Shown here: positions 4,675-60,523 of the stretch, in pieces
Layout: each line of letters begins with the position of its first letter
How positions within the stretch are numbered: the first letter of the stretch is position 1
DNA from: Providencia alcalifaciens
GTDB taxonomy: Bacteria; Pseudomonadota; Gammaproteobacteria; Enterobacterales; Enterobacteriaceae
Assembly: GCA_025961275.1 (NCBI GenBank)
Contig: JAOQNJ010000001.1
Coordinates: 3,927,353-3,991,352, forward strand
DNA: 64,000 nucleotides
Direction: 5' to 3'
Notes under the pieces: generated by a model
The model's database searches: none
What the model was told of the DNA's origin: nothing
Seen by the model: only the letters and a program-made list of their open reading frames with translations
Made by a program: the position numbers and the translations under genes

Positions 4675-5409
4675 TTATCGTGGCTTCAGCATGGCGATAA
4701 CAAGGTCTTGCGCACTGGCAGCTTTACCTTGTTGGATTGCGGCAGCAGGGTCGACATGCTTAGGACAGACTTCAGAGCAGTAGCCTACAAACGTACAGCT
4801 CCAGACACCGTTATCACCATTTAACAATGGCATACGCTCTTTAGCACCGTGATCACGGTTATCCAGATTGTAGCGCTCTGCGAGTGTAATTGCGGCTGGT
4901 CCCAAGAACTCTGGGTTAAGGCCAAATTGTGGGCAAGCGGAGTAGCACAAGCCACAGTTAATACAGCCAGAGAACTGATGGTATTTTGCCATCTGTGCTG
5001 GAGTCTGTTTATTTGGACCATCAGACGGTTTGCGATCATTACCAATAATGTAAGGTTTGATAGCTTCTAAGCGTTCGATAAAGTGAGTCATATCGACCAC
5101 TAAGTCGCGCTCGATAGGGAAGTTACCTAACGGCTCAACTTTCATTCCTTCAGGATATTCACGCAGGAATGTTTTACACGCCAGTTTTGGTACACTATCA
5201 ACCATCATGCCGCATGAGCCACAAATCGCCATACGGCATGACCAACGGTAAGAAAGATCAGGTGCAAGGTTATCTTTGATATAACCTAAAGCATCCAGCA
5301 ACGAGGTTTGCTCATCATAAGGGACATCATATGCCACTAAATGGGGCTCATTATCCGTTTCTGGATTGTAGCGCATGATCTCCATTTTTAAGTGTTTCAT
5401 ATCATCCAT
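4675..5409 (-). CDS. frdB: Fumarate reductase iron-sulfur subunit B
   Basis: 244 residues from the ATG that begins [11 protein letters not shown], the same length as E. coli FrdB; a longer in-frame start upstream lies inside frdA and is unlikely. The N-terminal ferredoxin domain has the [2Fe-2S] cysteines ([10 protein letters not shown] and a later Cys). The C-terminal domain carries the cysteine sets for [4Fe-4S] and [3Fe-4S] clusters ([12 protein letters not shown] and [12 protein letters not shown]). It passes electrons from quinol at FrdCD to FAD in FrdA. Its start overlaps the frdA stop by 8 bases, indicating translational coupling. Confidence 0.97.
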
Positions 5410-10741: not shown

Positions 10742-12187
10742 TTAACTAAGTTGCGTTACTGCATTACGCATACCGTTATTTAAAATTGAGTCAATATGCA
10801 TAGCCACTTTATTAACAAGTTCAGAATTTGTGCTCAAATCTTGTTCCCAGTGGCTTTCATCAGAAAGAATGACATTAACAAATTCTTTTGTTGTTAAAGC
10901 ACCTCCGACTTGTGGCCACATTTGTGCAAAGCGAGTTAGCCATATCTCATCATCTTGTAACGGGTAAGACTCGTCAAAACGTTGTCCGCGATAAAAGACC
11001 AATAAAGCTGCGAGAGCAAAACTCAAACGCTCAGAAATATAACCTTTTTTAATGCCTGTAATAAGCTGAGGTAAAATTCGAGTTTTAAATTTTGTCATGC
11101 TATTCAAGGAAATAGAGAGAAGCTGGTGCTGAATGTATGGGTTTTGGAAACGTCCTATTACAGCCTTTGCAAATTCACGTAACTCTGATTCTGGCAAATC
11201 GAGTACAGGAATAATATCTTCATTCAATAATTTTTCGACAAATTGCTGAATATGTTTATCTTGCATTGCTTCGCCAACGGTATTTAATCCACAAAGCCAA
11301 GCCACAGGAACCATTGCAGTATGAGCACCATTAAGAATGGCAACTTTGCGTTCTTTATAAGGCTTTATATCATCAACAATCTGGATATTCATTGAATGTT
11401 TATCAAGGTGTAATTCTTGAGTTAACCATTTAGGCCCCTGAATAACAAACAGATAGAAATGTTCTGCTGTATCGAGAAAAGCATCCTGATAGCCAAGCTC
11501 TTTTTCCAATTTTTGAGCTTCATCTCGCGGATAACCCGTTACTATGCGATCCACCAATGTTGAGCAAAATGTATTCGCCGATTCCAGCCATTGAAAGAAT
11601 TCTACTGATAACTGCCACTCCCGTGCATAGCGTAAAATTAAAGCTTTCAGCGCTTCACCATTATAGTCAATTAATTCACAAGGAATGATAATCCAGCCTT
11701 TATTGATATCACCCTTAAAGTAATTAAAGCGCTCAAATAAAAGCCGTGTTATTTTAGCCGGAAAACTGACTGGCGGTTTATCATCAAATTTATCATTTTC
11801 ATGATAGCTAATTCCGGATTCTGTCGTATTCGAAAAAACAAAACGGATATTTTTATCATGTGCTAAAGCTAGATATTCATCATAATCTTGATAAGGATTT
11901 ATTTCATTATTAACTGAGCTAATAATACGAGCTTCGCTGACTTCATCACCTTGCTCATTCAAACCACGAATTATCGTCGTATATAACCCATCTTGAATAT
12001 TTAATGAAGGTGGAAAGTCAGTATCAATAGGGCGAACAATCGTAATACCTGAATCAAGATTGGTTTTTTCATTTAAAATATCAATATTCCAATCAACAAA
12101 TGCGCGTAGGAAATTTCCTTCGCCAAATTGAATTACTCTAGTAGGATATTGTTTCTCTGGAAATTCACTTCGATTTAATGTTTTCAT
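10742..12187 (-). CDS. uxaB: Tagaturonate reductase (altronate oxidoreductase)
   Basis: 481 residues, end-to-end similar to E. coli UxaB (483). The N-terminal nucleotide-binding region ([20 protein letters not shown]) and the catalytic part of polyol dehydrogenases ([16 protein letters not shown]) are present. It reduces D-tagaturonate to D-altronate with NADH. Lying 14 bases after lgoD, it takes the product of LgoD directly to the next step. In E. coli K-12 uxaB is not in the lgo locus, so this linkage is a difference. Confidence 0.92.
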
Positions 12188-47022: not shown

Positions 47023-47430
47023 TCAACTACCACGATATGTTGAATACCCATATTGGCTTAATAATAGTGGGATATGATAATGCTCCTCTGTATTACTGAT
47101 GATAAATTCAACTGGAATTTCGGGGAAGAAACTATTTTGTTTATTATCTGCAAAATATTTTCCTGTTTTAAACGTAACTCGATATTCTCCGATTTCGGTT
47201 TTGATATTATCTGGCCATAATTTTTTTATGCGACCATCTTTATCTGTTTTATCTAAATTTAAAACTTTCCAACTATTGGATTGCTTTTGTTCTAATGTGA
47301 CTTCAACCCCAGGTGCTGGTTTTCCTGTCTGTTGATTAAGAATATGGACACTTAAAGTATCTGCAGCTTGGGCAAACACTGGTACAGTTATGGCAGATAA
47401 ACAAATAGCCGATAATAAATATTTTTTCAT
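47023..47430 (-). CDS. hiuH: 5-hydroxyisourate hydrolase, secreted form
   Basis: 135 residues with a signal peptide ([20 protein letters not shown], cleavage near AQA). Transthyretin-like fold with the three catalytic signatures: [14 protein letters not shown] near the start, an Arg in GEYRV, and the C-terminal YRGS. It hydrolyses 5-hydroxyisourate, the product of urate oxidation, here probably in the periplasm. No other purine catabolic gene is adjacent in the window. Confidence 0.93.
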
Positions 47431-48196
47431 TTCCCTATTCCCTTTATTAAAATTTTATCATGTTTGTTAATTCACGGTTATATTACAAAAATATTTATTA
47501 TAAATACTGACAATAACATTACAATTTAGTCATGTTGGTATTATTTTTCGCATAAATAGCCCTGTAAATTACGCCGCAGAATGATTTATTATATTCGCAA
47601 TTCATGAAAGACAGCGCAAAAAAATATGGGAACATATGCCCAGCAAGATGTTCTTGATTCACGATTGAGCAAATTTTTGCAATATGGCTCAAACCGTTCT
47701 GATACTTCTACTGTTCTTATGACTATTTATTCATTTTAAGAATAATTCATAAAAGGGACTTTGTTGATTGAATTATTACTACCCACCTTGGTGATTTTAA
47801 CACTTAGAGTAATGTGAAGCCCCTCGCATTTCAGCTATTTGCTTGTTTCTGTTTACAAAACAAATTGTATATACAACATCTGTTGGATAAACAGCAATCT
47901 ACTGTTTGTTGTATAGCTAATGCCCCGTCGTTTTCTCTAATCTTTGTATAAAAATTCAAATTTAAATGTATATACTTTGTGAATTAAATGTATATATATT
48001 TAAGAGAAAGACATCAACAGATAAGTTATCAATGATAAAAAATTAGCAGTAAAGATAATTTAACTAATTGAAATTTAAATGTATAGGTAAGGTTTTTAAG
48101 CGGTGAGTTTATCAGTGAAAAAACAATGACTCATTATAAATATCATTGATTGTTATTTAAACGTTAAATCCAGTGGATGAATGGGGGGATATACCA
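47431..48196. promoter_or_regulatory. Divergent hiuH/hutU region with candidate HutC operators
   Basis: 766 AT-rich bases with no supported gene. A perfect 12-base palindrome TTGTATATACAA at 47865-47876 fits the HutC-subfamily operator pattern GT-N-TA-N-AC. Three direct copies of TTAAATGTATA lie at 47962, 47984 and 48075; the first two are exactly 22 bases apart and extend to TTAAATGTATATA. They are good candidates for repressor or activator sites controlling hutU. Confidence 0.55.
47865..47876. promoter_or_regulatory. Candidate HutC operator palindrome
   Basis: TTGTATATACAA is a perfect palindrome with the GT..TA..AC arrangement bound by HutC-type GntR repressors. A hutC-like gene lies at the far end of the cluster. 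Confidence 0.5.
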
Positions 48197-49864
48197 ATGT
48201 TAAATCGTACTGACACTACACGTATTATTCGTGCACCGCACGGCAGTGAAGTAACGTGTAAAAGCTGGCTGACTGAAGCCGTGTACCGCATGATCCAAAA
48301 TAACCTTGACCCTGATGTTGCTGAGCATCCACAGAGCTTAGTGGTATATGGTGGTATCGGTCGCGCAGCTCGTGACTGGGAATGCTATGACAAAATTTTA
48401 GATGTCTTAAAAACACTTGAAGATGATCAAACCTTGCTCGTGCAGTCAGGCAAACCGGTTGGTGTTTTCCCTACTCATCCAGATGCACCTCGCGTATTAA
48501 TTGCTAACTCAAATATTGTTCCACATTGGGCGAATTGGGACCATTTCAACGAGTTAGATAAAAAAGGTCTGATGATGTACGGCCAAATGACCGCCGGTTC
48601 TTGGATTTATATCGGCTCACAAGGCATCGTACAAGGAACTTATGAAACTTTTATTTCTTTAGCAAAACAACACTTTAATGGAAATCTCGAGGGTCGATGG
48701 ATCTTAACTGGGGGTTTAGGTGGGATGGGGGGGGCACAGCCACTTGCGGCAACAATGGCTGGTTTTAGCATGATTGCAGTTGAGTGTGACGAAAGCCGTA
48801 TCGATTTTCGCCTAAGAACAGGTTATGTCGATAAAAAAGCGACTTCTATTGAAGAGGCTCTGCAATATCTTGAAGAAGCTAAAAGTAACGGAACGCCAGT
48901 TTCTGTAGGCTTACTTGGAAATGCTGCCGATGTTTACAGTGAGTTGGTTAAACGTAACATTATCCCTGATTCAGTTACCGATCAAACCAGTGCACACGAT
49001 CCCATTCATGGATACCTACCACAAGGTTGGATATTAAGCGAATGGCATGAAAAACAGCAAATTTCCCCTGCTGAAGTCACTAAAGCGGCTAAAAAAAGTA
49101 TGGCTATTCAGGTTGAAGCCATACTTGCTATGCAAAAGAAAGGTTCAGCAGCATTTGACTACGGTAATAACATTCGTCAAATGGCGAAAGATGAAGGTGT
49201 TAGTAATGCCTTTGATTTTCCTGGGTTTGTACCTGCTTATATCCGCCCTCTATTCTGTGAAGGGATCGGTCCATTTCGTTGGGTAGCACTCTCGGGTGAC
49301 CCGGAAGATATTTATAAAACAGATCAAAAAGTCAAAGAGCTGCTCCCTGATGATAAGCACCTTCATAACTGGTTAGATATGGCTCGTGAACGTATTGCAT
49401 TCCAAGGTTTGCCAGCGCGTATCTGCTGGGTGGGGCTGAAAGATCGTGAAAGATTAGGCCGTGCCTTTAATGAGATGGTGAAAACTGGCGAGCTAAAAGC
49501 GCCTATCGTGATCGGCCGTGATCACTTGGATTCAGGCTCGGTAGCGAGTCCACACCGTGAAACAGAATCGATGAAAGATGGTTCAGATGCGGTTTCTGAT
49601 TGGCCGTTACTGAATGCGTTATTGAACACGGCAGGTGGTGCAACATGGGTTAGTTTACATCATGGTGGAGGCGTAGGCATGGGCTTTTCACAGCATGCAG
49701 GCGTCGTGATTGTATGTGATGGAACTGATGCTGCAGATAAACGTTTAGCGCGAGTTTTACACAACGATCCTGCAACTGGAGTTATGCGCCATGCGGATGC
49801 TGGTTATGACATCGCAATTAGCTGTGCAAAACAGCAGGGCCTTAATTTGCCAATGGTGAAATGA
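48197..49864 (+). CDS. hutU: Urocanate hydratase
   Basis: 555 residues from the ATG at 48197 ([16 protein letters not shown]), preceded by GGGGGGAT eight bases upstream; a GTG eight codons earlier is less likely. NAD-binding region [20 protein letters not shown] and the active-site cysteine in [15 protein letters not shown] are intact. It converts urocanate to 4-imidazolone-5-propionate. Unusually, hutH, hutI and hutG do not adjoin it. Downstream, after a MITE-like element, come CoA-ester and electron-transfer genes on the same strand. Confidence 0.96.
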
Positions 49865-49882
49865 CGTCTTTTTTTGGATTAG

Positions 49883-50067
49883 GGGAAGTTGAACTCTGAA
49901 GATCAATTTTTAGTCGACTTAAACGTATTTACTTGAGACAGAAAGAAGCAAGGCGAATGGTTCGCCATCGAGTGAACTAGACGAATTTTGCTTAATACAA
50001 CGAAAAATCACGTTTAATCGTTCGATTAATTGATGCGATAAAAATAAGCAGTAAAGATTAACAGCCC
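49883..50067 (+). mobile_element. MITE-like element 1 (between hutU and CoA-transferase)
   Basis: About 185 bases with imperfect terminal inverted repeats: left GGGGAAGTTGAACTCTG, right end on the other strand GGGGCTGTTAATCTTTACTG, next to TTAG/CTAA. Inner blocks GAAGATCAATTTTTA, AGAAGCAAGGCGA and CGAAAAATCACGTTTAA are shared in the same order and orientation with the element at 58061-58301. No coding capacity. Its right end lies 47 bases before the CoA-transferase start, so it may influence its expression. Confidence 0.65.
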
Positions 50068-50114
50068 CTAATAACTAGGTCAGTTTGTTTTTAGGCTTTC
50101 ATAAGGATACGGAA

Positions 50115-51299
50115 ATGAATACTGTGCCAACTCAAAAAAGAAAAGGCGTTCTATCAGGAGTCAAAGTAATTGATTTAAGCCGAGTACTCGCAGGCCCCTA
50201 TTGTACAGGAATGATGGCCGATCTTGGTGCGGAAGTGATCAAAATAGAAGTCCCTGATCATGGCGATGATAGCCGTCATTTAGGCCCGTTTATTGAAGGT
50301 GAGAGTGTTTATTATGGACTCATCAACCGAGGAAAGCGCAGTATTGAACTGGATCTAAAGTCAGATGCTGACCGTGCCATTCTTTATCAATTAGTAAAAG
50401 AGAGTGATGTTGTCGTTGAAAATTTTCGACCGGGTGTAACAGCAAGGCTTGGTATTGATTTCGAAAGTTTAAAGCAGCACAACCCTCAATTAATTTATGC
50501 CAGTATTTCAGGTTTTGGGCAGGACAGTCCTCTTGCCAATTATCCGGCCTATGACATTGTTGCACAAGCGATGTCAGGGCTGATGAGTGTGACTGGATTC
50601 GAACAAACGGGGCCAACTCGAAGTGGTGAATCGATCGGTGATGTGTGTGCGGGTATGTTTGCAGCTTGGGCGATTAGCAGTGCGTTATTTGCAAGAGAAA
50701 GCCGCCAAGAGCCTGCACAATATATTGATGTTGCAATGGTTGATGTCTTACTCAGCATGCAATTAACTGGGCTTTCCAATTTATTTGCGAATGGTAAAGC
50801 GCCCAGTTTAGTCGGTAATCGTCATCCAGTTTCGACGCCATTTGATACTTATCTGGCGAAGGATGGACTGGTTGTGATAGCGATTGCGAGTGAAAAGCTA
50901 TTCCAACGTTTTTGTGAATGTATTGAGCAGCCTACTCTTCGTGCTAATCCTCATTATAAAGATGATCCTGCGCGAACTCTTTATCAAGCTGAACTCAAAA
51001 TAGAAATCGAGCAATGGACATCACAAAAAACAGTTGAAGAAGTTTGTGATTTACTGTTAAACGCAGGTGTTCCTGCTTCACCGATTCATAACTTACAACA
51101 AGCAACACAGAGTGAGCATGCGAAAGTTCGTCAAGTTCTCACATACCTTGATGATGGGGGAACTCCACTGGTTTCTCAGCCTGTTTTTTTCAACGGACTC
51201 AAACCTCATGTTACACAAAGAGCGCCTAACTTAGGTGAAGCGAATGGCATTTATAAACCGGCAATAAAAACGATTAAAAGCACGGAGACAATACAATGA
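50115..51299 (+). CDS. Class III (CaiB/BaiF family) CoA-transferase
   Basis: 394 residues from the ATG at 50115 (MNTVPTQKRKG), with AAGGA upstream. N-terminal GVKVIDLSRVLAGPYCTGMMADLGAEVIKIE and the NRGKRSIELDLK segment are family hallmarks. The likely catalytic Asp is Asp176 in SIGDVCAG. It would move CoA between a CoA donor and a carboxylic acid. Next to hutU and an acyl-CoA dehydrogenase, the acid is probably imidazolepropionate or urocanate (inference). Other members use carnitine, oxalate or mesaconate. It overlaps the dehydrogenase gene by 4 bases. Confidence 0.9.
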   Translation: MNTVPTQKRKGVLSGVKVIDLSRVLAGPYCTGMMADLGAEVIKIEVPDHGDDSRHLGPFIEGESVYYGLINRGKRSIELDLKSDADRAILYQLVKESDVVVENFRPGVTARLGIDFESLKQHNPQLIYASISGFGQDSPLANYPAYDIVAQAMSGLMSVTGFEQTGPTRSGESIGDVCAGMFAAWAISSALFARESRQEPAQYIDVAMVDVLLSMQLTGLSNLFANGKAPSLVGNRHPVSTPFDTYLAKDGLVVIAIASEKLFQRFCECIEQPTLRANPHYKDDPARTLYQAELKIEIEQWTSQKTVEEVCDLLLNAGVPASPIHNLQQATQSEHAKVRQVLTYLDDGGTPLVSQPVFFNGLKPHVTQRAPNLGEANGIYKPAIKTIKSTETIQ

Positions 51300-52435
51300 G
51301 TTTTCAAATAGATGAAACAGAACAGGCAATTGTAGATGCGGTAGAAAAAGTTTGCCGAGATATCCTGCAAGCTAATGCACAGCGTTATGATGAAACCGAG
51401 ACTTTTTGTGTAGAAAGCTTGAGTGCGCTAGGTGAGATGGGTTGCTGGGGAATTAACTTACCTGAGCAATATGGTGGATTTGGTATTGGCAGTATTGCCA
51501 TGAGTATGATTGTTGAAGCCGTAGCAGCAGCTTGTGCATCGACATCATCAGCGTTAACTGCTCATTTCCTCGCTACTGATTCAATTTTAATTGGTGGAAC
51601 AGAAGCACAAAAACAATATTGGTTACCCAAAGCAGCTAGTGGAGAAATGCTTGGTGCATTTGGCTTAACAGAGCCCGCAGCGGGTTCAAATCCAGCAGAT
51701 ATGCGTACTATTGCAGCGCGAGAAAAAGAGGGGTGGCGAATTCGAGGTAATAAGCATTATATTACCAACGCCAAAGAGGCTGATTTCATTGTGTTATATG
51801 CCAAAACAGATCCTGAAGCTGGGGCTCGAGGTATAAGTGCATTTATGATCCCTAAAGGGACAGAAGGTGTTGAATTTTCTTCACCTGAAAAAACCATGGG
51901 GCTGCGTGGAAGTACGATTTATGAATTAGCACTAAATTGTTGGTTGCCTGAATCGGCATTACTTGGCGAAGAAAATAAAGGGTTTCATACCGCAATGGAA
52001 GTGCTGGATAAAGGCCGTGTGGAAGTTGCCGCATCCTCATTAGGAATTGCTCGAGCGTCGATGGAAAGTGCTTTGATCTGGGTGAAGGAACGCCAAATCG
52101 GTAAAAAGCCATTAGCAGCTTATCAAGGAACTCAATGGCGTATCGCAGATATGCATACTCAGTTAGAGGCGGCTCGCTTATTGACTTGGCATGCTGCAGA
52201 ACGGCGTGATTCAGGCGAACGTTTTAGTTTGCAATCGGCAACGGCTAAATTGTTCGCTGCGGAATGTGCTGGTTTTGTCACTGATGCTGCACTACAACTT
52301 CATGGCGGCTATGGTTATATTCGTGATCTCCCCCTAGAACGCTATGTACGTGATGCAAGAATTTTGCGAATTTTTGAAGGTACCTCGGAAATTCAAAAGA
52401 TCATTATCTCGCGCGCGGTTTTAGATGCCGTTTAA
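51296..52435 (+). CDS. Acyl-CoA dehydrogenase (substrate inferred: imidazolepropionyl-CoA)
   Basis: 379 residues, the short-chain/CaiA-like length. FAD-binding FGLTEPAAGSNPADMRT and YITNAKEADF in the middle domain; GRVEVAASSLGIARA in the C-terminal domain; catalytic Glu361 in IFEGTSEIQKI. It should introduce an alpha,beta double bond and reduce ETF, whose genes follow in the cluster. Oxidising imidazolepropionyl-CoA would give urocanyl-CoA (inference from hutU linkage). A reductive role as for CaiA is possible but less supported. Confidence 0.9.
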   Translation: MSFQIDETEQAIVDAVEKVCRDILQANAQRYDETETFCVESLSALGEMGCWGINLPEQYGGFGIGSIAMSMIVEAVAAACASTSSALTAHFLATDSILIGGTEAQKQYWLPKAASGEMLGAFGLTEPAAGSNPADMRTIAAREKEGWRIRGNKHYITNAKEADFIVLYAKTDPEAGARGISAFMIPKGTEGVEFSSPEKTMGLRGSTIYELALNCWLPESALLGEENKGFHTAMEVLDKGRVEVAASSLGIARASMESALIWVKERQIGKKPLAAYQGTQWRIADMHTQLEAARLLTWHAAERRDSGERFSLQSATAKLFAAECAGFVTDAALQLHGGYGYIRDLPLERYVRDARILRIFEGTSEIQKIIISRAVLDAV

Positions 52436-52829
52436 TTGCGAGATAAGACAGTATTGGGAGGCGGACAGGCGCCTACCAAATATGAGTAATAAACTGCAAT
52501 AAAATGAACAACCTGACAACAGGATCATGGAATTAAAAACACAACAACAATCAGGTTTAAGAATGTATTTCAATTTTTAATGGCGGGCATTTTATACACT
52601 GATAATACTTCGAGTCGCTTGTAGGTGAATTACAACGAAATTCTAGCATACATAGATAACTATATAGTTTCGTATCCGAGTATTCACAATACAGATTATA
52701 TAACTGAAGTATGGCGGTAATAATAGCGAAAACAGAGCCCGACTTAGAGTCTGATGGCTGTATCCTACGGCAACCATAATGACAAATTGGTCCATTCTTT
52801 AGGCCAGCCTTGCTTAAAGAGGAGTTACC
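52436..52829. other. Intergenic region before the NCS1 permease gene
   Basis: 394 bases. It holds a decayed ERIC-like repeat at about 52594-52725 (ACTTCGAGTCGCTTGTAGG; ends AACTGAAGTATGGCGG) and then AAAGAGGAG, the ribosome site of the permease. There is no clear terminator after the dehydrogenase, so readthrough is possible. Confidence 0.4.
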
Positions 52830-54272
52830 ATGACAGTTTCAAATGAAATAATCGCAGATAAAAAGAATCGGCAGGAGAATGTTCCCTTAATAGAAGCACG
52901 TTCGATTGACTATATCCCTGAGTCCGAACGACATGGCACCTTATCAAGTCAATTTACGCTTTGGTTTGGTGCTAATTTACAGATCACCGCTATTGTGACC
53001 GGAGCACTTGCTGTTGTACTGGGGGGCGATGTATTTTGGTCTTTAATCGGTTTATTTATTGGGCAATTATTAGGTGGGGCAGTGATGGCATTGCATGCGG
53101 TGCAAGGGCCAAAACTCGGTTTACCTCAAATGATATCTAGCCGTGTTCAGTTTGGCGTATATGGAGCGGTAATCCCGATCCTTTTAGTGTGCATGATGTA
53201 CGTGGGCTTCTCGGCAAGTGGCACTGTACTTGCAGGTCAGGCTGTTGGGCAGTTACTTCATGTCAGTGATTGGATTGGTATTTTAATATTTGGTGCAGTC
53301 ATTATTGCGATCACTATCTGTGGTTATCGTATTATTCATATTTTAGGTAAAGTCGCTAGCGTTGTCGGGGTTATTGCTTTCTTTTACCTTTTCTTCCGAC
53401 TGTTTTATATGAATGATGTATCGGTTTTGTTGGAAAATCGTCATTTCAGTTGGACCAACTTTCTATTAGCGATGTCATTGGCTGCATCTTGGCAAATTGC
53501 ATTTGGCCCTTATGTTGCTGACTATTCGCGTTATTTACCGACTAAAACACCAACAATCAAAGCCTTCTTGGCCGTTGGCTCAGGTACTGTGATTGGTACT
53601 CAAGCATCCATGATCCTTGGCGTATTTGCAGCGGCTCTCGCAGGGAGTCAATTTGCAGGTCATGAAGTTTCATATATTGTTGGGCTCGGTAGTACGGGTT
53701 TAATCGCTGCATTACTCTACATCAGTATTTTCTTCGGCAAAGTGACGATTACAGCATTGAATGCGTATGGCAGCTTTATGTCGATGGCCGCAATATTCTG
53801 TGGTTTTCGTGGGAAGCAGCATATCTCTAGCGGTCAGCGGCTATTCTTCATCATTCTTATGGTGAGCTTTTCGACCATTTTAGGCCTAGCAGGGCAACAT
53901 TCATTCCTAAAACTGTTTTCAGCTTTCTTACTGTTCTTACTGGCTTTCTTTACACCTTGGAGTGCCATCAATCTAGTTGATTACTACTGGGTAACAAAAG
54001 GTCGCTATGACGTACCTCAATTATCTAATCCTAACGGGCGTTATGGTCGTTGGAATAAAGTCGGTATCACTACTTATATTGTAGGTGTATTGATTCAACT
54101 ACCTTTTATCGCAACAGGTTTCTATACCGGACCTTTTGTTGAAATGTTAGGTGGGGTTGATATTTCATGGATAGTGGGATTAGTAGTGACCAGCATTATC
54201 TATTATGCCGCAATTAAAAAATGGCCAATGTCTGTCGCTGATAGGCTGATATTGCCATCCTCCAATCCATAA
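52830..54272 (+). CDS. NCS1-family permease (cytosine/purine/imidazole type)
   Basis: 480 residues with about twelve membrane helices. The N-terminal RHGTLSSQFTLWFGANLQI and the ASWQIAFGPYVADYSRYLP segment are typical of NCS1 transporters (CodB/PucI/HyuP relatives). NCS1 proteins import nucleobases, hydantoins, allantoin or thiamine, and often lie in hut operons. Here it may import imidazolepropionate or urocanate (inference). It sits inside the cluster, between the dehydrogenase and the ETF genes. Confidence 0.87.
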   Translation: MTVSNEIIADKKNRQENVPLIEARSIDYIPESERHGTLSSQFTLWFGANLQITAIVTGALAVVLGGDVFWSLIGLFIGQLLGGAVMALHAVQGPKLGLPQMISSRVQFGVYGAVIPILLVCMMYVGFSASGTVLAGQAVGQLLHVSDWIGILIFGAVIIAITICGYRIIHILGKVASVVGVIAFFYLFFRLFYMNDVSVLLENRHFSWTNFLLAMSLAASWQIAFGPYVADYSRYLPTKTPTIKAFLAVGSGTVIGTQASMILGVFAAALAGSQFAGHEVSYIVGLGSTGLIAALLYISIFFGKVTITALNAYGSFMSMAAIFCGFRGKQHISSGQRLFFIILMVSFSTILGLAGQHSFLKLFSAFLLFLLAFFTPWSAINLVDYYWVTKGRYDVPQLSNPNGRYGRWNKVGITTYIVGVLIQLPFIATGFYTGPFVEMLGGVDISWIVGLVVTSIIYYAAIKKWPMSVADRLILPSSNP

Positions 54273-54334
54273 AATGCACTTTAAATAATATGAGTAAGGA
54301 ATGAATTTAAAATAACAATAATCGAGATTGAGAT

Positions 54335-54430
54335 ACACAAACTAATTTGAATGATATCTAGACGTTCTACAACGCTATCCGATGAATATACAAGAGTATG
54401 TAATTCGGATAGCTGAGAGAACTGAACATA
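54335..54430. repeat. Decayed ERIC-like repeat before etfB
   Basis: GAATATACAAGAGTATGTAA and TTCGGATAGCTGAGAG resemble the ERIC core. It lies in the 259-base gap between the permease and etfB. Confidence 0.4.
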
Positions 54431-54531
54431 GAGACAATTATTAAATAGGGCAGTTATAGCAATGAATTATTCGCTGTAGGGCTTCCCTCATCCTAAAAAT
54501 ACGTTCTGGCAGAGAGTAGTTAGGAGTGATT

Positions 54532-55287
54532 ATGAAAATTTTAGTGGCTATTAAACGTGTTATCGATCACAACGTTAAAGTTCGTGTAAAAGCCGATGGT
54601 TCAGGTGTTGAATTAGCAAATGTCAAAATGGCAATTAATCCTTTTGATGAGATTGCCGTTGAAGAGGCTGTGCGTTTAAAAGAGGCAGGAAAGGCAAGCG
54701 AAGTCGTCGTTGTTTCAGTTGGTGATACCAGCTCACAAGAAACATTACGCAGTGCGATGGCGATGGGGGCTGATCGTGCTGTTTTGGTTCAAAGACCGAC
54801 TGATATGGTTTTAGAGCCTCTTGATATTGCGCGTTTATTACAGCAAATCGTTATTACAGAGCAACCTGACTTAATTCTGCTGGGTAAACAGGCAATTGAT
54901 AATGACTGTAACCAAACCGGACAGATGCTATCAGCACTACTCAAATGCAGTCAGGCAACCTTTGCTTCTTTAATTGCAGTGGAAGGCTCTGCGTTACTGG
55001 TCACTCGTGAAATTGATGGCGGATTAGAAACGCTTTCTTTACCTTTACCTGCGGTTATTACAACAGATTTGCGCTTGAATGAACCTCGCTACGCAACGCT
55101 TCCTAATATTATGAAAGCTAAGAAAAAGCCTCTTGAAATACACGATATTTCACAGATGAGTTTCTTACCATTAGGGCAAGTAAAAATATTGACGGTGAGT
55201 GAACCAAAGAAACGGACAGGTCAATGCACATTATTTAATGATGTAAATGCATTAGTCAGTGAGCTACAAGCGAAAGAAGCGATCTAA
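54532..55287 (+). CDS. etfB: Electron transfer flavoprotein beta subunit (group I)
   Basis: 251 residues from the ATG at 54532 (MKILVAIKRVIDHNVKVRVK), with AGGAG upstream. AMP-binding and recognition-loop features of mitochondrial-type ETF are conserved: LGKQAIDNDCNQTGQM, REIDGGLETL and NEPRYATLPNIMKAKKK. This is the non-bifurcating group, not the FixA type that goes with CaiA in E. coli. With EtfA it takes electrons from the acyl-CoA dehydrogenase. 15 bases before etfA. Confidence 0.94.
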   Translation: MKILVAIKRVIDHNVKVRVKADGSGVELANVKMAINPFDEIAVEEAVRLKEAGKASEVVVVSVGDTSSQETLRSAMAMGADRAVLVQRPTDMVLEPLDIARLLQQIVITEQPDLILLGKQAIDNDCNQTGQMLSALLKCSQATFASLIAVEGSALLVTREIDGGLETLSLPLPAVITTDLRLNEPRYATLPNIMKAKKKPLEIHDISQMSFLPLGQVKILTVSEPKKRTGQCTLFNDVNALVSELQAKEAI

Positions 55288-55302
55288 TTAGGGAGAATTA
55301 TC

Positions 55303-56253
55303 ATGAACCCGTTATCAATATTAGTTGTGGTAGAACACGACAACCAAACTATCAAATCTTCAACCTATCACAGTGTGACTGCGGTAAAGCAAATGCTGGC
55401 AGGTCAAGGCCATCTACATTTATTAGTCGCTGGTCATCAGTGTGAAAAAATAGCGGAACTTTCAGCAAAAATAGGGGGCGCTGAAAAAGTTATCCTCATT
55501 GATAGCAGCGAACTGAGCCATCAACTCGCAGAATCAATGACAGATGCAATAGTGTCCATAGCCAAGGATTATAGCCATTTAATTTTCCCAGCAACGACAT
55601 TTGGTAAAAACATCGCGCCACGGGTAGCCGCGACACTGGGTATCGCTCAAATTTCTGATATTACAGAAGTGATTGATGCACAAACCTTTATCCGTCCAAT
55701 TTATGCAGGTAATGCGCTCGCTACAGTACAGAATAATGGCCATCAGGTCGTATTAACGATACGTAGTTCGGCATTTTCAGCGGCTGCGGATACGCAAAAT
55801 ATTACTGAAATTGAAAAACATTCTGTTAGTGATTTTAGCCAATTAGCTCAACTCAAAAGCCAGTCATTAACTCAAGTTAGTCGTGCTGAGTTAAGTTCGG
55901 CAAAAATTGTGATATCGGGTGGTCGAGGGCTAAGTTCTGGTGAAAATTTTGCACTGTTAGAATCAATCGCAGACAAGCTGGGTGCAGCTGTTGGGGCTTC
56001 AAGAGCCGCAGTTGATGCCGGCTATGTACCGAATGACTATCAAGTTGGGCAGACGGGTAAAATTATCGCACCCGACCTATACATCGCTGTGGGGATCTCG
56101 GGCGCTATCCAACACATTGCCGGAATGAAAGAAAGCAAAGTGATCGTTGCAATCAATAGTGATCCGGATGCACCTATTTTCCAAATCGCGGATTATGGCA
56201 TCGTCGGCGATCTGTTTGAGATCTTGCCTGAATTCGATAAAGCGCTGGCATAA
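55303..56253 (+). CDS. etfA: Electron transfer flavoprotein alpha subunit (group I)
   Basis: 316 residues, the usual length. C-terminal FAD-binding domain is complete ([57 protein letters not shown]). With EtfB it shuttles electrons to the ETF:quinone oxidoreductase encoded 11 bases downstream. Confidence 0.94.
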
Positions 56254-56264
56254 GGGAGTTGATC

Positions 56265-57947
56265 ATGACTATCGACAATAGTGTCAATATAAATGGGGCT
56301 CCCGAGCGGGAATCGATGGAATTTGATGTCCTGATTGTCGGTGGTGGGCCTGCAGGGCTATCAGCAGCTATACGCTTAAAGCAACTTGCGTTAGAGACAA
56401 AGAAAGAATTGTCGGTCTGTTTAATAGATAAAGGTGCAGAAATCGGTGCACATATTTTGTCGGGTGCTGTTATTGATCCTCGTACGCTTGATGAATTATT
56501 ACCGAATTGGCAACAAATAGTCTCTAACCAATTAACCCAAGTGACAGAAGATAGTTTTCTATGGTTAAAACAGCATAAAGCCAGTCGATTACCATTAGCA
56601 TTGCTGCCTGCAAGCTTGAAAAATAGTGGTAATTTGATTGGAAGTCTTGGACAAGTTTGCTCTGCATTAGCTATAGAAGCAGAGCAACTAGGCGTAGATA
56701 TATTTGCAGGCTTTGCTGCGACAGAGATTCTGTATGATCAATCTGGTTCTGTTATCGGCATTACAACAGGTGATATGGGGCTTGATAAATCAGGTCACCG
56801 AACGTCGATGTACCAAGCTGGTATGAATTTATTGGCAAAAATGACGCTATTTGCTGAAGGTTGTCGTGGGCAATTAGGTAAACAGTTAATTGAGCACTTT
56901 GATTTATCTGCTAATCGCGGTAAACAAACTTATGGCCTTGGTTTAAAAGAAATTTGGCAGATCCCAAAAGAGCAACATCAACCTGGGTTAGTTGTCCATT
57001 CTATTGGTTGGCCCTTAGATAATGATACCTATGGCGGTGGTTTCGCTTACCATTATGGCGATAATCTCGTTGCTGTCGGTTTAGTCGTCGGGCTTAATTA
57101 TGAGAATCCTTATTTATCACCATTTGATGAATTTCAACGACTTAAAACACATCCTTCATTTAGTGCTTTTTTAAGTGGTGGTGAGCGGATGAGTTATGGT
57201 GCTAGAACGCTTGTTGCTGGTGGATTAGCTGCACTACCTGAACTGAGCTTTCCTGGCGGAGCACTGATTGGCGATGATGCGGGTTTTTTGAATGCAGCCC
57301 GTATTAAAGGTAGCCACTGTGCGATGAAAAGCGGAATGCTTGCGGCTGAAGCTTTTTTTGACTCCATCATTAATGAAAACATTGATTATGATAAGTTTAA
57401 GCTCCAATACCAGCAAAAATTCGAACAAAGCTGGCTTTATGATGAGCTATACCAAACACGGAACTTTAAGCCTTATATGAAAAAAGGCCTATATATTGGT
57501 TCGTTATTATTTGGCGCTGAGCAATTGCTGTTAAAAGGTCGCACTCCGTGGACGTTGAAATTAAAACAGTCCGACCATCAGGCATTAAAAGAGGCTAAAA
57601 ACTTTCAACCAATTGAGTATCCGAAACCAGACGGCATGTTGACATTTGATAAGCCTTCTTCTGTCTTTCTATCAAATACCAACCATGAAGAAGAGCAGCC
57701 TTGTCACCTACAATTATTTGATAATCAAGTCCCTATAAATGTGAACTTCTATAAGTACGCAGCACCTGAAATCCGTTATTGCCCTGCGGGCGTTTATGAA
57801 ATAGTCAGCGAAAAAGAGCAACCAAAATTACAGATCAATGCACAAAACTGTTTGCACTGTAAGGCCTGCGACATTAAAGATCCGACACAGAATATTAGGT
57901 GGACCGCACCACAAGGTGGTGAAGGGCCTATTTATCAAGGGATGTGA
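56265..57947 (+). CDS. Electron transfer flavoprotein:ubiquinone oxidoreductase (ETF-QO)
   Basis: 560 residues from the ATG at 56265 (MTIDNSVNINGAPE), with AAGGGAG upstream. N-terminal FAD motif VLIVGGGPAGLSAAIRL, an amphipathic membrane-association and quinone region (GLGLKEIWQIPKEQHQPG; GGFAYHY), and a C-terminal [4Fe-4S] domain with Cys in YCPAGVYE and NCLHCKACDIKDPTQNI, ending GGEGPIYQGM. This is the full-length mitochondrial type rather than separate FixC and FixX. It feeds ETF electrons into the quinone pool. Last gene of the block, with a terminator 77 bases later. Confidence 0.93.
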   Translation: MTIDNSVNINGAPERESMEFDVLIVGGGPAGLSAAIRLKQLALETKKELSVCLIDKGAEIGAHILSGAVIDPRTLDELLPNWQQIVSNQLTQVTEDSFLWLKQHKASRLPLALLPASLKNSGNLIGSLGQVCSALAIEAEQLGVDIFAGFAATEILYDQSGSVIGITTGDMGLDKSGHRTSMYQAGMNLLAKMTLFAEGCRGQLGKQLIEHFDLSANRGKQTYGLGLKEIWQIPKEQHQPGLVVHSIGWPLDNDTYGGGFAYHYGDNLVAVGLVVGLNYENPYLSPFDEFQRLKTHPSFSAFLSGGERMSYGARTLVAGGLAALPELSFPGGALIGDDAGFLNAARIKGSHCAMKSGMLAAEAFFDSIINENIDYDKFKLQYQQKFEQSWLYDELYQTRNFKPYMKKGLYIGSLLFGAEQLLLKGRTPWTLKLKQSDHQALKEAKNFQPIEYPKPDGMLTFDKPSSVFLSNTNHEEEQPCHLQLFDNQVPINVNFYKYAAPEIRYCPAGVYEIVSEKEQPKLQINAQNCLHCKACDIKDPTQNIRWTAPQGGEGPIYQGM

Positions 57948-58024
57948 AATGATTTTGTTGTGATGTACGAAGGGAATAGATGTGTTTGTTGATATGGATG
58001 TTTTTAAATTTTATCAGTCGCTTT

Positions 58025-58047
58025 GGGGCAGAATTGCCCCTTTTTTT
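58025..58047 (+). terminator. Intrinsic terminator after ETF-QO
   Basis: GGGGCA / TGCCCC stem with a 4-base loop and seven T. It closes the plus-strand catabolic block and lies 13 bases before MITE-like element 2. Confidence 0.88.
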
Positions 58048-58060
58048 ATTTGTTTGCTAG

Positions 58061-58301
58061 GGGCTGTTTATCTTTGAAGATCAATTTTTATTCGAATTAT
58101 ACGTTTTTAGTTAAGACAAAAAGAAGCAAGGCGAGCCGCTCAACACAGCGAAAAATCACGTTTAAACGAACTCTAAAGGCGCTTTCCTTTACGGTTTGGG
58201 TTGTGATGATGTTTTTAATAACCCCAATAGGCTACATAATGAAATTGATGTCATTTTAATCAATTGGTGCAGTAAAAATAAGCAGCAAAGATCAACAGTC
58301 C
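58061..58301 (+). mobile_element. MITE-like element 2 (between ETF-QO and hutC)
   Basis: 241 bases flanked by CTAG on both sides, a probable target duplication. Inverted ends GGGCTGTTTATCTTTG and, on the other strand, GGACTGTTGATCTTTGCTG. It shares the inner blocks GAAGATCAATTTTTA, AGAAGCAAGGCGA, CGAAAAATCACGTTTAA and AAAAATAAGCAG with element 1, plus an extra segment of about 90 bases. CTAG-type targets are known for IS5-family transposases; no transposase is encoded here. Confidence 0.7.
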
Positions 58302-58326
58302 CTAGTCAAGTCATGCCAATAAAAAC

Positions 58327-59043
58327 TCACGAATTATCAATGCGAGAATGTAGCTTTAACTTGTAACGAGACCCTGCAGTTACCATGTTGACATAACTAA
58401 TTAGAGTTGCACCAGTCCAAGTACGGCGGCTGAGCTGTAAGCAAGGTGAACCTTCTTTAATTGATAGTGATTGAGCGATGACTTTAGTCGCTAAAGCTGC
58501 CTCTATCATGTGTTCCATCTCACTAACAGGAAAATGTCGTTGTAAATAGCCACTGGGTGTTTCAGTATCACCAAATTGCTGCTTTACAAAATCAGGTGCA
58601 ATAGCATGATTCACATAGCGCTCTTCAAGCATTAGCGGAATATCATTTTCAAAATGTAATACTTTGCAATAGCCTATATCACTGCCTTCCATTACACCAA
58701 GTTGTAATGCAATTTCGGCTGAAGCGGCGATCACTTTTAGTTGCAATTGATGACCACTATATTTATTACCACTCAATGATATTTCATTGAAAATATCGAA
58801 AGCTTTCGTAACGGGAAGTTCATGTTTTTGTGAGGCAACAAATGTCCCTTTACCTGCGATACGGCTAAGAATACCTTTTTGGCTGAGCTCAGAAATAGCT
58901 TTATTGACTGTCATACGGCTTACATTAAATTGAGCACATAGCTCTAATTCTGTCGGTATTTGAGTTTCAGGTTTAAAAATACCTAAATCAATACTGCGCA
59001 GAATATAAGATTGAATTTGCTTGTATGCCGGTTGTGAAGTCAT
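58327..59043 (-). CDS. hutC: HutC-type GntR-family repressor
   Basis: 238 residues. N-terminal winged helix (PTELELCAQFNVSRMTVNKAI; IAGKGTFVAS) and a C-terminal UTRA ligand domain (EERYVNHAIAPDFV; LQLSRRTWTGATLISYVNMV), matching HutC histidine-utilisation repressors, which respond to urocanate. It lies convergent with the ETF-QO gene and downstream of an MFS gene. It probably controls hutU and the block through GT..TA..AC operators such as that at 47865. Confidence 0.9.
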   Translation of the reverse strand: MTSQPAYKQIQSYILRSIDLGIFKPETQIPTELELCAQFNVSRMTVNKAISELSQKGILSRIAGKGTFVASQKHELPVTKAFDIFNEISLSGNKYSGHQLQLKVIAASAEIALQLGVMEGSDIGYCKVLHFENDIPLMLEERYVNHAIAPDFVKQQFGDTETPSGYLQRHFPVSEMEHMIEAALATKVIAQSLSIKEGSPCLQLSRRTWTGATLISYVNMVTAGSRYKLKLHSRIDNS

Positions 59044-59174
59044 TGTGATTATTTAATCATTATGGTTAAAAATAAAGGTTAGGGGAAACTCGCTAATTTC
59101 GGGTTCATGTAGGGCTTATTGATGGCCCGCACAAGTTTAACAGTAAATCACCGCTTTACTAGTGGATACTAAAA

Positions 59175-59275
59175 ATACCCGTCCTACTTCAAGCTGACTC
59201 ATTGTTGCTGAGTTTATGTATACTCTTGAAGTTTGCTCATTTGTTAACGAGGCTGCAACTCTAATCATTATGCGA
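59175..59275 (+). repeat. Decayed ERIC-like repeat between MFS gene and hutC
   Basis: ACCCGTCCTACTTCAAGCTG at the left, TTTATGTATACTCTTGAAG in the core, GCTGCAACTCTAATCATTATG at the right. ERIC-like with several mismatches. Confidence 0.55.
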
Positions 59276-59311
59276 TACCCAAAATGAAAAAACGGGCATT
59301 ACTCTTCTTGA

Positions 59312-60523
59312 TCATGTTTTTTTAGGCAGCAAGAACACGGCCAAGGCAGCAATAATTGCCACGATGGAAAAGGCAATAAAGTTCCAGCTACTCGCAATAC
59401 CAAGGCTAGCAATATACGCGCCAAACATGGGGCCTGACATTGCCCCTATGCGTGAAAAACTTAGCGCCCAACCTGTGGCAGATGCTCGTACGTTAGCTGG
59501 ATAGTAATTGGCAATATAGCCTGTGAGTATTAGAGCTGCGGAAATACTACCAACACCAGCAAATGCGACTAATAGATAATTTACAAAGATATTTTGTTTA
59601 GATATCAACGTACCAACACCAATCGCCCCTAGTAAAAAGAAGAATGAAACAGAACCTCTTACGCCATACTTATCTGCGATTTTACCTAGGAATAAACCGC
59701 CTAATGCAGAAGCTAAACTAAATACAATCAGGAAAGTAAGGCTAGAACCTAAGTTATAACCTTCTTTACGCATAATAGAAGGTAACCAAGTATTTAATCC
59801 ATAAACAAGTAACATGCCACAGAATAAAGCAACCCAAAAACAACTTGTTGCCCGTAAATGCTGCCATGCGAATACCACAGATACGATATCTTTGAGTCTC
59901 TGTTTTGGTTGTTCTTGTTTGGTGGGAGCTTGATAATTCATGTCAAGTTTCTGTGCGAGTTGTTTGGCTTGTGAATGCAATCCTTTATTTGAAAGATATT
60001 CTAATGATTCAGGTAAAATACGAGCCATTGGCCAGATGAGAAATAATGGTAAGGCACCAAATGCGATGATACTTCGCCAACCAAATTGTTCCAATAACCA
60101 AATAGCAACTAATGCAGCACTGAGGATACCAAGAGAATAACCAGAATACATAATTCCGTAATTAAAAGAGCGTTTCTCTGGTGGCGAATATTCGATTGTT
60201 AATGCTGCGGCTACAGGAATTACGCCGCCTAACCCGATTCCACCAATAAAACGCATTATTCCAAAAATCCAAGGTGTTGGTGCAAGTGCTGCACCTAGCA
60301 TCGTTAATGAAAATAGAGTTACACACAGAAGTAACATGAGACGCCGACCATAAAGTTCACTTAACGTACCAATAATAAAAGCACCAAAAAACATACCCAC
60401 TAGTGCATAGCTACTTAATGCGCCAAGTTCTAAAGGTGAAAGATCCCATTGCCTATATTCTGCTAGTGTTGGTAATACAGCACCCATCACACCAACATCA
60501 TAGCCTTCAAATAAAATACTCAT
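59312..60523 (-). CDS. MFS transporter, AAHS-like, N-terminus uncertain
   Basis: 403 residues from the first ATG, about 30 short of the aromatic acid:H+ symporter family. MFS signatures GTLSELYGRRLMLL and the second-half KIADKYGVRG are present. The in-frame DNA upstream codes a plausible missing part (TTFKVLLICW directly before MSILFEGYD), reaching an ATG at 60613, but a TAA is its third codon. No ribosome site precedes the ATG at 60523. It either starts at a rare codon or is inactivated. It may import a hut-related acid (inference from position). Confidence 0.7.
   Translation of the reverse strand: MSILFEGYDVGVMGAVLPTLAEYRQWDLSPLELGALSSYALVGMFFGAFIIGTLSELYGRRLMLLLCVTLFSLTMLGAALAPTPWIFGIMRFIGGIGLGGVIPVAAALTIEYSPPEKRSFNYGIMYSGYSLGILSAALVAIWLLEQFGWRSIIAFGALPLFLIWPMARILPESLEYLSNKGLHSQAKQLAQKLDMNYQAPTKQEQPKQRLKDIVSVVFAWQHLRATSCFWVALFCGMLLVYGLNTWLPSIMRKEGYNLGSSLTFLIVFSLASALGGLFLGKIADKYGVRGSVSFFFLLGAIGVGTLISKQNIFVNYLLVAFAGVGSISAALILTGYIANYYPANVRASATGWALSFSRIGAMSGPMFGAYIASLGIASSWNFIAFSIVAIIAALAVFLLPKKT

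Follow-up and report, generated by a model that had tools for sequence, protein, structure and literature searches.

A CoA-transferase and acyl-CoA dehydrogenase cluster beside a second urocanase in Providencia: a candidate route for the oxidation of imidazolepropionate

In the carnitine cai/fix system of Escherichia coli, a CoA-transferase can cycle coenzyme A (CoA) between product and substrate, and works alongside an enzyme of the acyl-CoA dehydrogenase (ACAD) family and a dedicated electron transfer flavoprotein (ETF). Imidazolepropionate (dihydrourocanate) is produced by gut microbes and has been studied for its contribution to insulin resistance and heart disease; its degradation (as imidazolylpropionate) by Pseudomonas testosteroni, Comamonas testosteroni in modern naming, was reportedly the subject of a paper by Coote and Hassall in 1973, to judge by its title. 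The urocanate reductase UrdA, described as unidirectional, reduces free urocanate to imidazolepropionate (PMC7921117), and a 2025 review terms the latter a non-metabolizable product of urocanate reductase (PMC11872695). In Pseudomonas and Cupriavidus, methylsuccinate and itaconate are activated by one CoA-transferase, and an ACAD oxidises methylsuccinyl-CoA (PMC12290011), while Pseudomonas fluorescens possesses a urocanate transporter, HutTu (PMC8871633). No genes for imidazolepropionate breakdown were found in the titles and abstract openings listed by searches of the open-licence literature, a scope that leaves most subscription papers and all preprints outside. Here we describe a run of genes in a 64-kb stretch (C1:3927353-3991352, hereafter the window) of a 4.86-Mb Providencia assembly, which probably oxidises imidazolepropionate to urocanate and thereby feeds histidine catabolism.

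The run consists of a second urocanase gene (hutU2) and, on the same strand, genes for a class III CoA-transferase (caiB), an ACAD (acad), an NCS1-family permease (ncs1), the two ETF subunits (etfB and etfA) and a full-length ETF-quinone oxidoreductase (ETF-QO, etfQO); genes for a HutC-type repressor (hutC2) and an MFS transporter lie opposite (Table 1). All nine genes named by the first-pass annotation are thus present, on the strands it had given them. HutU2 scores 976 bits against the urocanate hydratase model TIGR01228 (cut-off 375) and aligns with the P. putida urocanase 1UWL from residue 11 to 554 of 555 (963 bits), which identifies it as a urocanate hydratase. Its assignment as a thiourocanate hydratase was ruled out, as it falls below the cut-offs of both the thiourocanate hydratase model NF058530 (696 versus 930 bits) and the S-methyl-thiourocanate model. 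The CoA-transferase belongs to class III (CoA_transf_3, PF02515, 403.8 bits versus a cut-off of 23.3) and carries Asp176, which we take to be the catalytic aspartate, in a GD motif. It reaches no NCBIfam cut-off for the YfdE, FRC, CaiB, mesaconate or glutarate types (best NF008511, 334.6 versus 522 bits), and the genome's own YfdE-type CoA-transferase scores 722.6. The ACAD start overlaps the CoA-transferase stop by 4 bp; its best solved relative is 5ol2 (303 bits), and Glu361, presumably the catalytic base, stands within an IFEGTSEIQ motif.

Electron transfer from the ACAD to quinone via ETF and ETF-QO had been claimed for this cluster, and the profile matches bear it out. The ETF-QO combines a ubiquinone-binding domain (PF21162, 143 bits) and a 4Fe-4S domain (PF05187, 160.7 bits) in one chain, with weaker FAD-domain matches (PF01266 and PF13450) also over cut-off, and is therefore assigned as an ETF-quinone oxidoreductase. 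With both domains present and no second PF05187 match in the genome, a dedicated path to quinone is available to electrons from the ACAD. HutC2 exceeds the TIGR02018 cut-off (241 versus 220 bits), whereas the MFS protein reaches 296 bits against TIGR00895, below the cut-off of 419.

The substrate is suggested by the company these enzymes keep, because a CoA-transferase and an ACAD beside a urocanase imply an acid that yields urocanate on losing two hydrogens, namely imidazolepropionate. The acid would be imported by the NCS1 permease, in some strains with the help of the MFS transporter, and the CoA-transferase would convert it to imidazolepropionyl-CoA, taking the first charge of CoA from a donor such as succinyl-CoA. 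The ACAD would then form urocanyl-CoA and pass two electrons through EtfAB and ETF-QO to quinone. We infer that urocanyl-CoA donates its CoA to the next imidazolepropionate, so that free urocanate would be released and hydrated by HutU2 and HutU1, while HutI and HutG, encoded elsewhere, would complete the route to glutamate. HutC-type repressors, binding at a predicted site, would keep the operon off until urocanate appears.

The remaining genes of the histidine utilization pathway are also encoded, as the first-pass annotation had proposed should be checked for hutI and hutG, and the set hutH/U/I/G is complete. Located near C1:189-197 kb, the main hut locus contains hutI, hutC1, hutU1, hutH and an amino-acid permease gene, and its four Hut products exceed their NCBIfam cut-offs (HutI 467.5 versus 298, HutC1 298 versus 220, HutU1 1003 versus 375 and HutH 731 versus 539 bits); hutG lies in a separate place and likewise scores above its cut-off (293.7 versus 229 bits). 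As hutU1 stands in this main locus, hutU2 represents a second urocanase. The two urocanases are 75% identical, and HutC2 is 38% identical to HutC1.

Within Providencia the cluster is conserved. The CoA-transferase occurs in 23 of 24 genomes (including the one analysed here), and in all 23 of these hutU2, caiB and acad are adjacent and two urocanases are encoded; the single genome without the CoA-transferase has one urocanase, in its main hut locus, so that caiB and the second urocanase agree in presence or absence in 24/24 genomes. At the 11 named Providencia loci, ncs1, etfB, etfA, etfQO and hutC2 are always found, and the MFS gene is present within the 10-kb flanks of three. Stops interrupt one of the 23 copies (G167, L042). 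In P. stuartii NCTC11800 (L057) several genes are interrupted, which is likely to reflect sequencing error, because the unrelated neighbour livK is interrupted too.

Outside Providencia, the module was sought in a sample of 149 genomes representing 148 genera of the family, of which 13 match the CoA-transferase at E<=1e-60 and only one further genus matches at >=70% identity. In that second genus, represented by one genome (G060) and hence one species, caiB-acad-ncs1-etfB-etfA-etfQO follow in the same order, with 65-80% identity, beside a hutC gene whose product is over cut-off; its single urocanase is located in the normal hut locus. The hut neighbourhood proposed in the first-pass annotation thus holds across genomes, both in Providencia and, without hutU2 but beside hutC, in another genus. 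Further relatives occur in Saccharopolyspora, Achromobacter and Bordetella. In Saccharopolyspora, two 21-kb stretches contain hutC, hutT, hutH, an NCS1 homologue, an ACAD gene and caiB, one of them with hutU in addition. Elsewhere matches are sparse: the order of G539 contributes 1 of 348 genomes, G539 itself, among the matches listed for that order with at most five candidates scored per genome, and one Burkholderiales family contributes 2 of 74, both already in the set.

Regulation provides a second line of linkage to histidine catabolism. HutC of Pseudomonas binds TGTA-N2-TACA (PMC12977541), and this published consensus was used to scan for operators. The window contains a single match, 331 bp before hutU2 (Table 1). 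On average 1.4 matches would be expected in the window from random sequence of matched dinucleotide composition, so it is the place of the site, and not the number, that is telling there; 0.2 are expected in the 19.5-kb stretch of the second genus (L068), where the one site, at 10787, lies between hutC and caiB. Among the 11 named Providencia loci the exact site TGTATATACA recurs near -330 in nine, and TGTCTATACA occupies this position in the other two. The module is therefore preceded by a predicted HutC operator in both genera. The main hut locus (L003, 19 kb) has two sites, at 4864 and 8433, one before hutI and one before hutU1; in the two Saccharopolyspora stretches hutC is closely followed by a site that precedes the hutT match, where none occurred in 60 random sequences; and the 19.5-kb stretch of G071 contains four, including one just before an NCS1 gene and one before hutU.

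The NCS1 homologues in these hut-bearing stretches are 65% (G071) and 47-49% (the two Saccharopolyspora) identical to the permease of the window. In L070, an NCS1 gene (1-990, - strand) whose product is 65% identical to that of the window lies directly behind a HutC site at 1007, in a stretch that also contains hutU and hutI; this arrangement suggests that the NCS1 group to which both belong carries urocanate-type acids.

To place the CoA-transferase among its relatives, a tree of 46 class III CoA-transferases was constructed. It is midpoint-rooted, so that a clade denotes one side of a supported branch, and it has several long branches flagged among the controls. The window CoA-transferase falls in a group of 22 rows with support of 97/95. 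Hut-type genes (urocanase-family, HutH-like, HutC-type or HutI genes within about 9 kb at E<=1e-20) are found near 20 of the 22 members, or 13 of 15 without the seven Providencia rows, the exceptions being a Planosporangium locus (L053) and L059, which lies on a 5.2-kb contig. By contrast, none of the 18 control loci with more distant CoA-transferases has such a gene at this threshold; at the looser E<=1e-8 one does (L071, where a gene at a distance of about 7.5 kb matches HutC1 with 24% identity). Matches were also present in 39 plasmid records; three annotated ones, selected from 15 of these, were examined and all belong to the group. The co-occurrence within Providencia, together with this hut linkage across the group, led us to reject a chance neighbourhood. 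The oxalate system (frc/oxc/yfdE) was also rejected as an explanation: it sits elsewhere, at L071, where a formyl-CoA transferase, an oxalyl-CoA decarboxylase and a YfdE-type transferase are all over cut-off, and the window CoA-transferase branches apart from it.

The members of the group occur in five gene contexts. The Providencia loci and the second genus combine the CoA-transferase with an ACAD, ETF and ETF-QO, and the two Saccharopolyspora stretches have the hutC/hutT/hutH/NCS1/ACAD/caiB set described above. At four Burkholderiales loci a urocanase homologue lies within about 3 kb, accompanied by ACADs. In L055, L056 and L061 this homologue exceeds the thiourocanate hydratase cut-off, and in L060 it is a contig-end fragment that fits the same model best; L061 also encodes a thiohydantoin desulfurase over cut-off and a HutH-like lyase. 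For the ACADs of L055 and L061, the nearest models are those of the large and small subunits of pimeloyl-CoA dehydrogenase, whose cut-offs they do not reach. The clusters of L055, L056 and L061 are candidates for thio-imidazolepropionate oxidation, and this Burkholderiales branch reads as the same route applied to the thio-analogue with another kind of ACAD. A further arrangement recurs on three plasmids of rhizobia and in two genomes from the same family as the window: a HutH-like lyase (just below the HutH cut-off in L069, L070 and L125, which were scored), the CoA-transferase, a 3-hydroxyacyl-CoA dehydrogenase, an enoyl-CoA hydratase and a betaine/osmoprotectant-like ABC transporter. Regulators of the HutC/UTRA type are encoded on all but one of these five stretches. 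This cluster may serve the CoA-dependent breakdown of an ammonia-lyase product. Finally, in L058, a gammaproteobacterial metagenome-assembled genome, an MDR oxidoreductase-like gene, caiB and a urocanase gene over cut-off are consecutive, and no ACAD match was found in the 21-kb stretch.

Taking these contexts together, we lean, if only slightly, towards a wider claim: that CoA-transferases of urocanate-type acids form an unrecognised group, of which the window genes would be an imidazolepropionate sink, and that this group is used in at least three routes. These would be imidazolepropionate oxidation with urocanase, ACAD and ETF; thio-imidazolepropionate oxidation with thiourocanate hydratase and ACADs; and CoA-dependent breakdown of an ammonia-lyase product with a HutH-like lyase, hydroxyacyl-CoA dehydrogenase and enoyl-CoA hydratase.

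Table 1. Features of the window and of related clusters in other genomes. Positions without a locus label refer to the window.
Feature	Position	Strand	Match or remark
HutC operator-like site TGTATATACA	47866-47875	.	TGTA-N2-TACA, 331 bp before hutU2
hutU2, second urocanase (urocanate hydratase)	48197-49864	+	TIGR01228, 1UWL match
caiB, class III (CaiB/FRC-type) CoA-transferase	50115-51299	+	PF02515
acad, acyl-CoA dehydrogenase, short-chain type	51296-52435	+	Pfam Acyl-CoA_dh_1/M/N
ncs1, NCS1-family permease, candidate imidazole-acid importer	52830-54272	+	PF02133 173.5 bits
etfB, electron transfer flavoprotein beta subunit	54535-55287	+	PF01012 140 bits
etfA, electron transfer flavoprotein alpha subunit	55303-56253	+	PF00766 123 bits, PF01012 130 bits
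etfQO, ETF-quinone oxidoreductase, full length	56265-57947 (alternative start 56316)	+	PF05187, PF21162
Terminator-like hairpin 3' of etfQO	58025-58040	+	6-bp stem, 5 G-C pairs, then T-run
hutC2, HutC-type GntR/UTRA repressor	58327-59043	-	TIGR02018
MFS transporter, aromatic acid/H+ symporter-like, accessory	59312-60523	-	TIGR00895, below cut-off
Thiourocanate hydratase, CoA-transferase and ACADs (candidate thio-imidazolepropionate oxidation)	L055 8308-13532; L056 7660-13536; L061 4268-15204
HutH-like lyase, CoA-transferase, 3-hydroxyacyl-CoA dehydrogenase, enoyl-CoA hydratase and ABC transporter	L124 8446-12908; L125 8404-12869; L126 8399-12864; L069 7668-12068; L070 7289-11701
MDR oxidoreductase-like gene, caiB and urocanase gene	L058 8961-12968

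The hairpin behind etfQO is weak evidence on its own, as the scan returned 9 sites compared with 11.2 in shuffled sequence. Upstream of hutU2, on the opposite strand, the window carries a hydroxyisourate hydrolase gene (47023-47430), which is present at one of the 11 named Providencia loci (L043).

Several observations weigh against the assignment of the cluster to imidazolepropionate oxidation. The substrate is assigned from gene context, and both the ACAD and the CoA-transferase fall below all curated NCBIfam cut-offs. The close form of the module is rare, with no match at E<=1e-90 in the 368 further genomes sampled from the class. In the second genus a urocanase gene does not accompany the module; of the 5 of 22 Saccharopolyspora genomes that match at E<=1e-90, two do so closely and the loci of the other three are without hut genes; and the 21-kb Planosporangium stretch has caiB and acad but is devoid of hut genes. 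The scan for TGTA-N2-TACA gave no match in L069 or any of the three rhizobial stretches. The ACADs of the Burkholderiales loci share only 22-28% identity with that of Providencia and do not group with it. Within the run itself, intergenic gaps of 250, 394 and 262 bp on the + strand leave room for internal promoters, which makes a single transcript uncertain.

The same set of enzymes could also work in reverse, in an anaerobic respiratory reduction of urocanate in which electrons pass from quinol through ETF-QO to ETF and imidazolepropionate is released via CoA esters. ACADs and ETFs can act as reductases: caffeyl-CoA reductase CarC is related to the window ACAD (235 bits), whose best NCBIfam match, below the cut-off of 640, is the acryloyl-CoA reductase AcrC (382 bits). 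In L058 the MDR oxidoreductase-like gene that adjoins caiB, in place of any ACAD match, weakly resembles acryloyl-CoA reductases. A HutC operator would suit urocanate as a substrate too, but a urocanase encoded in the same run would drain the urocanate on which the reduction depends. A full ETF-QO, moreover, is the carrier that serves oxidation to quinone, and Saccharopolyspora, Achromobacter and Bordetella, in which relatives are found, respire oxygen. For these three reasons we infer oxidation as the direction and consider the reductive one unlikely.

Alternatively, the acid oxidised might be another imidazole compound, such as an N-methylated or 2-thio imidazolepropionate, with HutU2 hydrating the matching urocanate analogue. 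This would account for a second urocanase in a genome that already has hutU1, and one branch of the same CoA-transferase group does accompany thiourocanate hydratase; however, HutU2 scores as a urocanate hydratase much as HutU1 does (976 and 1003 bits) and below cut-off with the thiourocanate and S-methyl-thiourocanate models, and in the second genus the module stands without hutU2, so that we regard this explanation as quite improbable. Less probable still is a substrate of an unrelated kind, such as an aryl propionate or short dicarboxylate, with hutU2 adjacent by accident. The flanking MFS protein does resemble aromatic-acid and hydroxyphenylpropionate transporters, all below their cut-offs, but the hut-type linkage across the CoA-transferase group, the HutC sites and the agreement between caiB and the second urocanase in every Providencia genome sampled all speak against such a substrate. 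The oxidation of imidazolepropionate to urocanate therefore remains our preferred reading, and the proposal that known enzyme families are combined here in a new, medically relevant pathway is well supported by its genomic context.

If the oxidation of imidazolepropionate is confirmed, microbial sinks for this compound exist in Providencia and a few other bacteria, and the net amount of imidazolepropionate need not equal the output of UrdA. The enzymes could be used in assays or as tools for imidazolepropionate removal, and genes would be put to the 1973 observation on Pseudomonas testosteroni.

The locus shares elements with several described systems without matching any of them. With UrdA it would share the compound pair urocanate/imidazolepropionate, but the window encodes a CoA-ester dehydrogenase route that would run in the opposite direction. 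The itaconate/methylsuccinate cluster follows the same logic, in that a CoA-transferase activates a saturated acid, an ACAD makes the unsaturated CoA ester and the reduced analogue thereby joins an existing pathway; it differs in handling aliphatic dicarboxylic acids and in carrying the CoA ester forward through a hydratase and a lyase, with no free acid passing to a urocanase. In the thiourocanate hydratase/thiohydantoin desulfurase pathway (NF058530, NF058529), too, a urocanase homologue is accompanied by ACADs and by a CoA-transferase from the group that includes the window protein, although that homologue is a thiourocanate enzyme and the ACADs are not close to the Providencia ACAD. The hut pathway under HutC control has in common with the window a true urocanase, a HutC-type repressor, an operator-like site and a product that enters HutI/HutG, to which the window would add a CoA-dependent route by which the reduced acid is admitted instead of through histidase. 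The likeness to cai/fix drawn in the first-pass annotation holds as an analogy: both have a class III CoA-transferase able to cycle CoA, an ACAD-family enzyme and a dedicated ETF. It does not extend to membership, because the window proteins fall far below the cut-offs for CaiA (163 versus 540 bits), CaiB (129 versus 413) and FixC (53 versus 610). Where cai/fix has FixC/FixX, the window has a full-length ETF-QO, and if the reading proposed here is right, it works as an oxidation.

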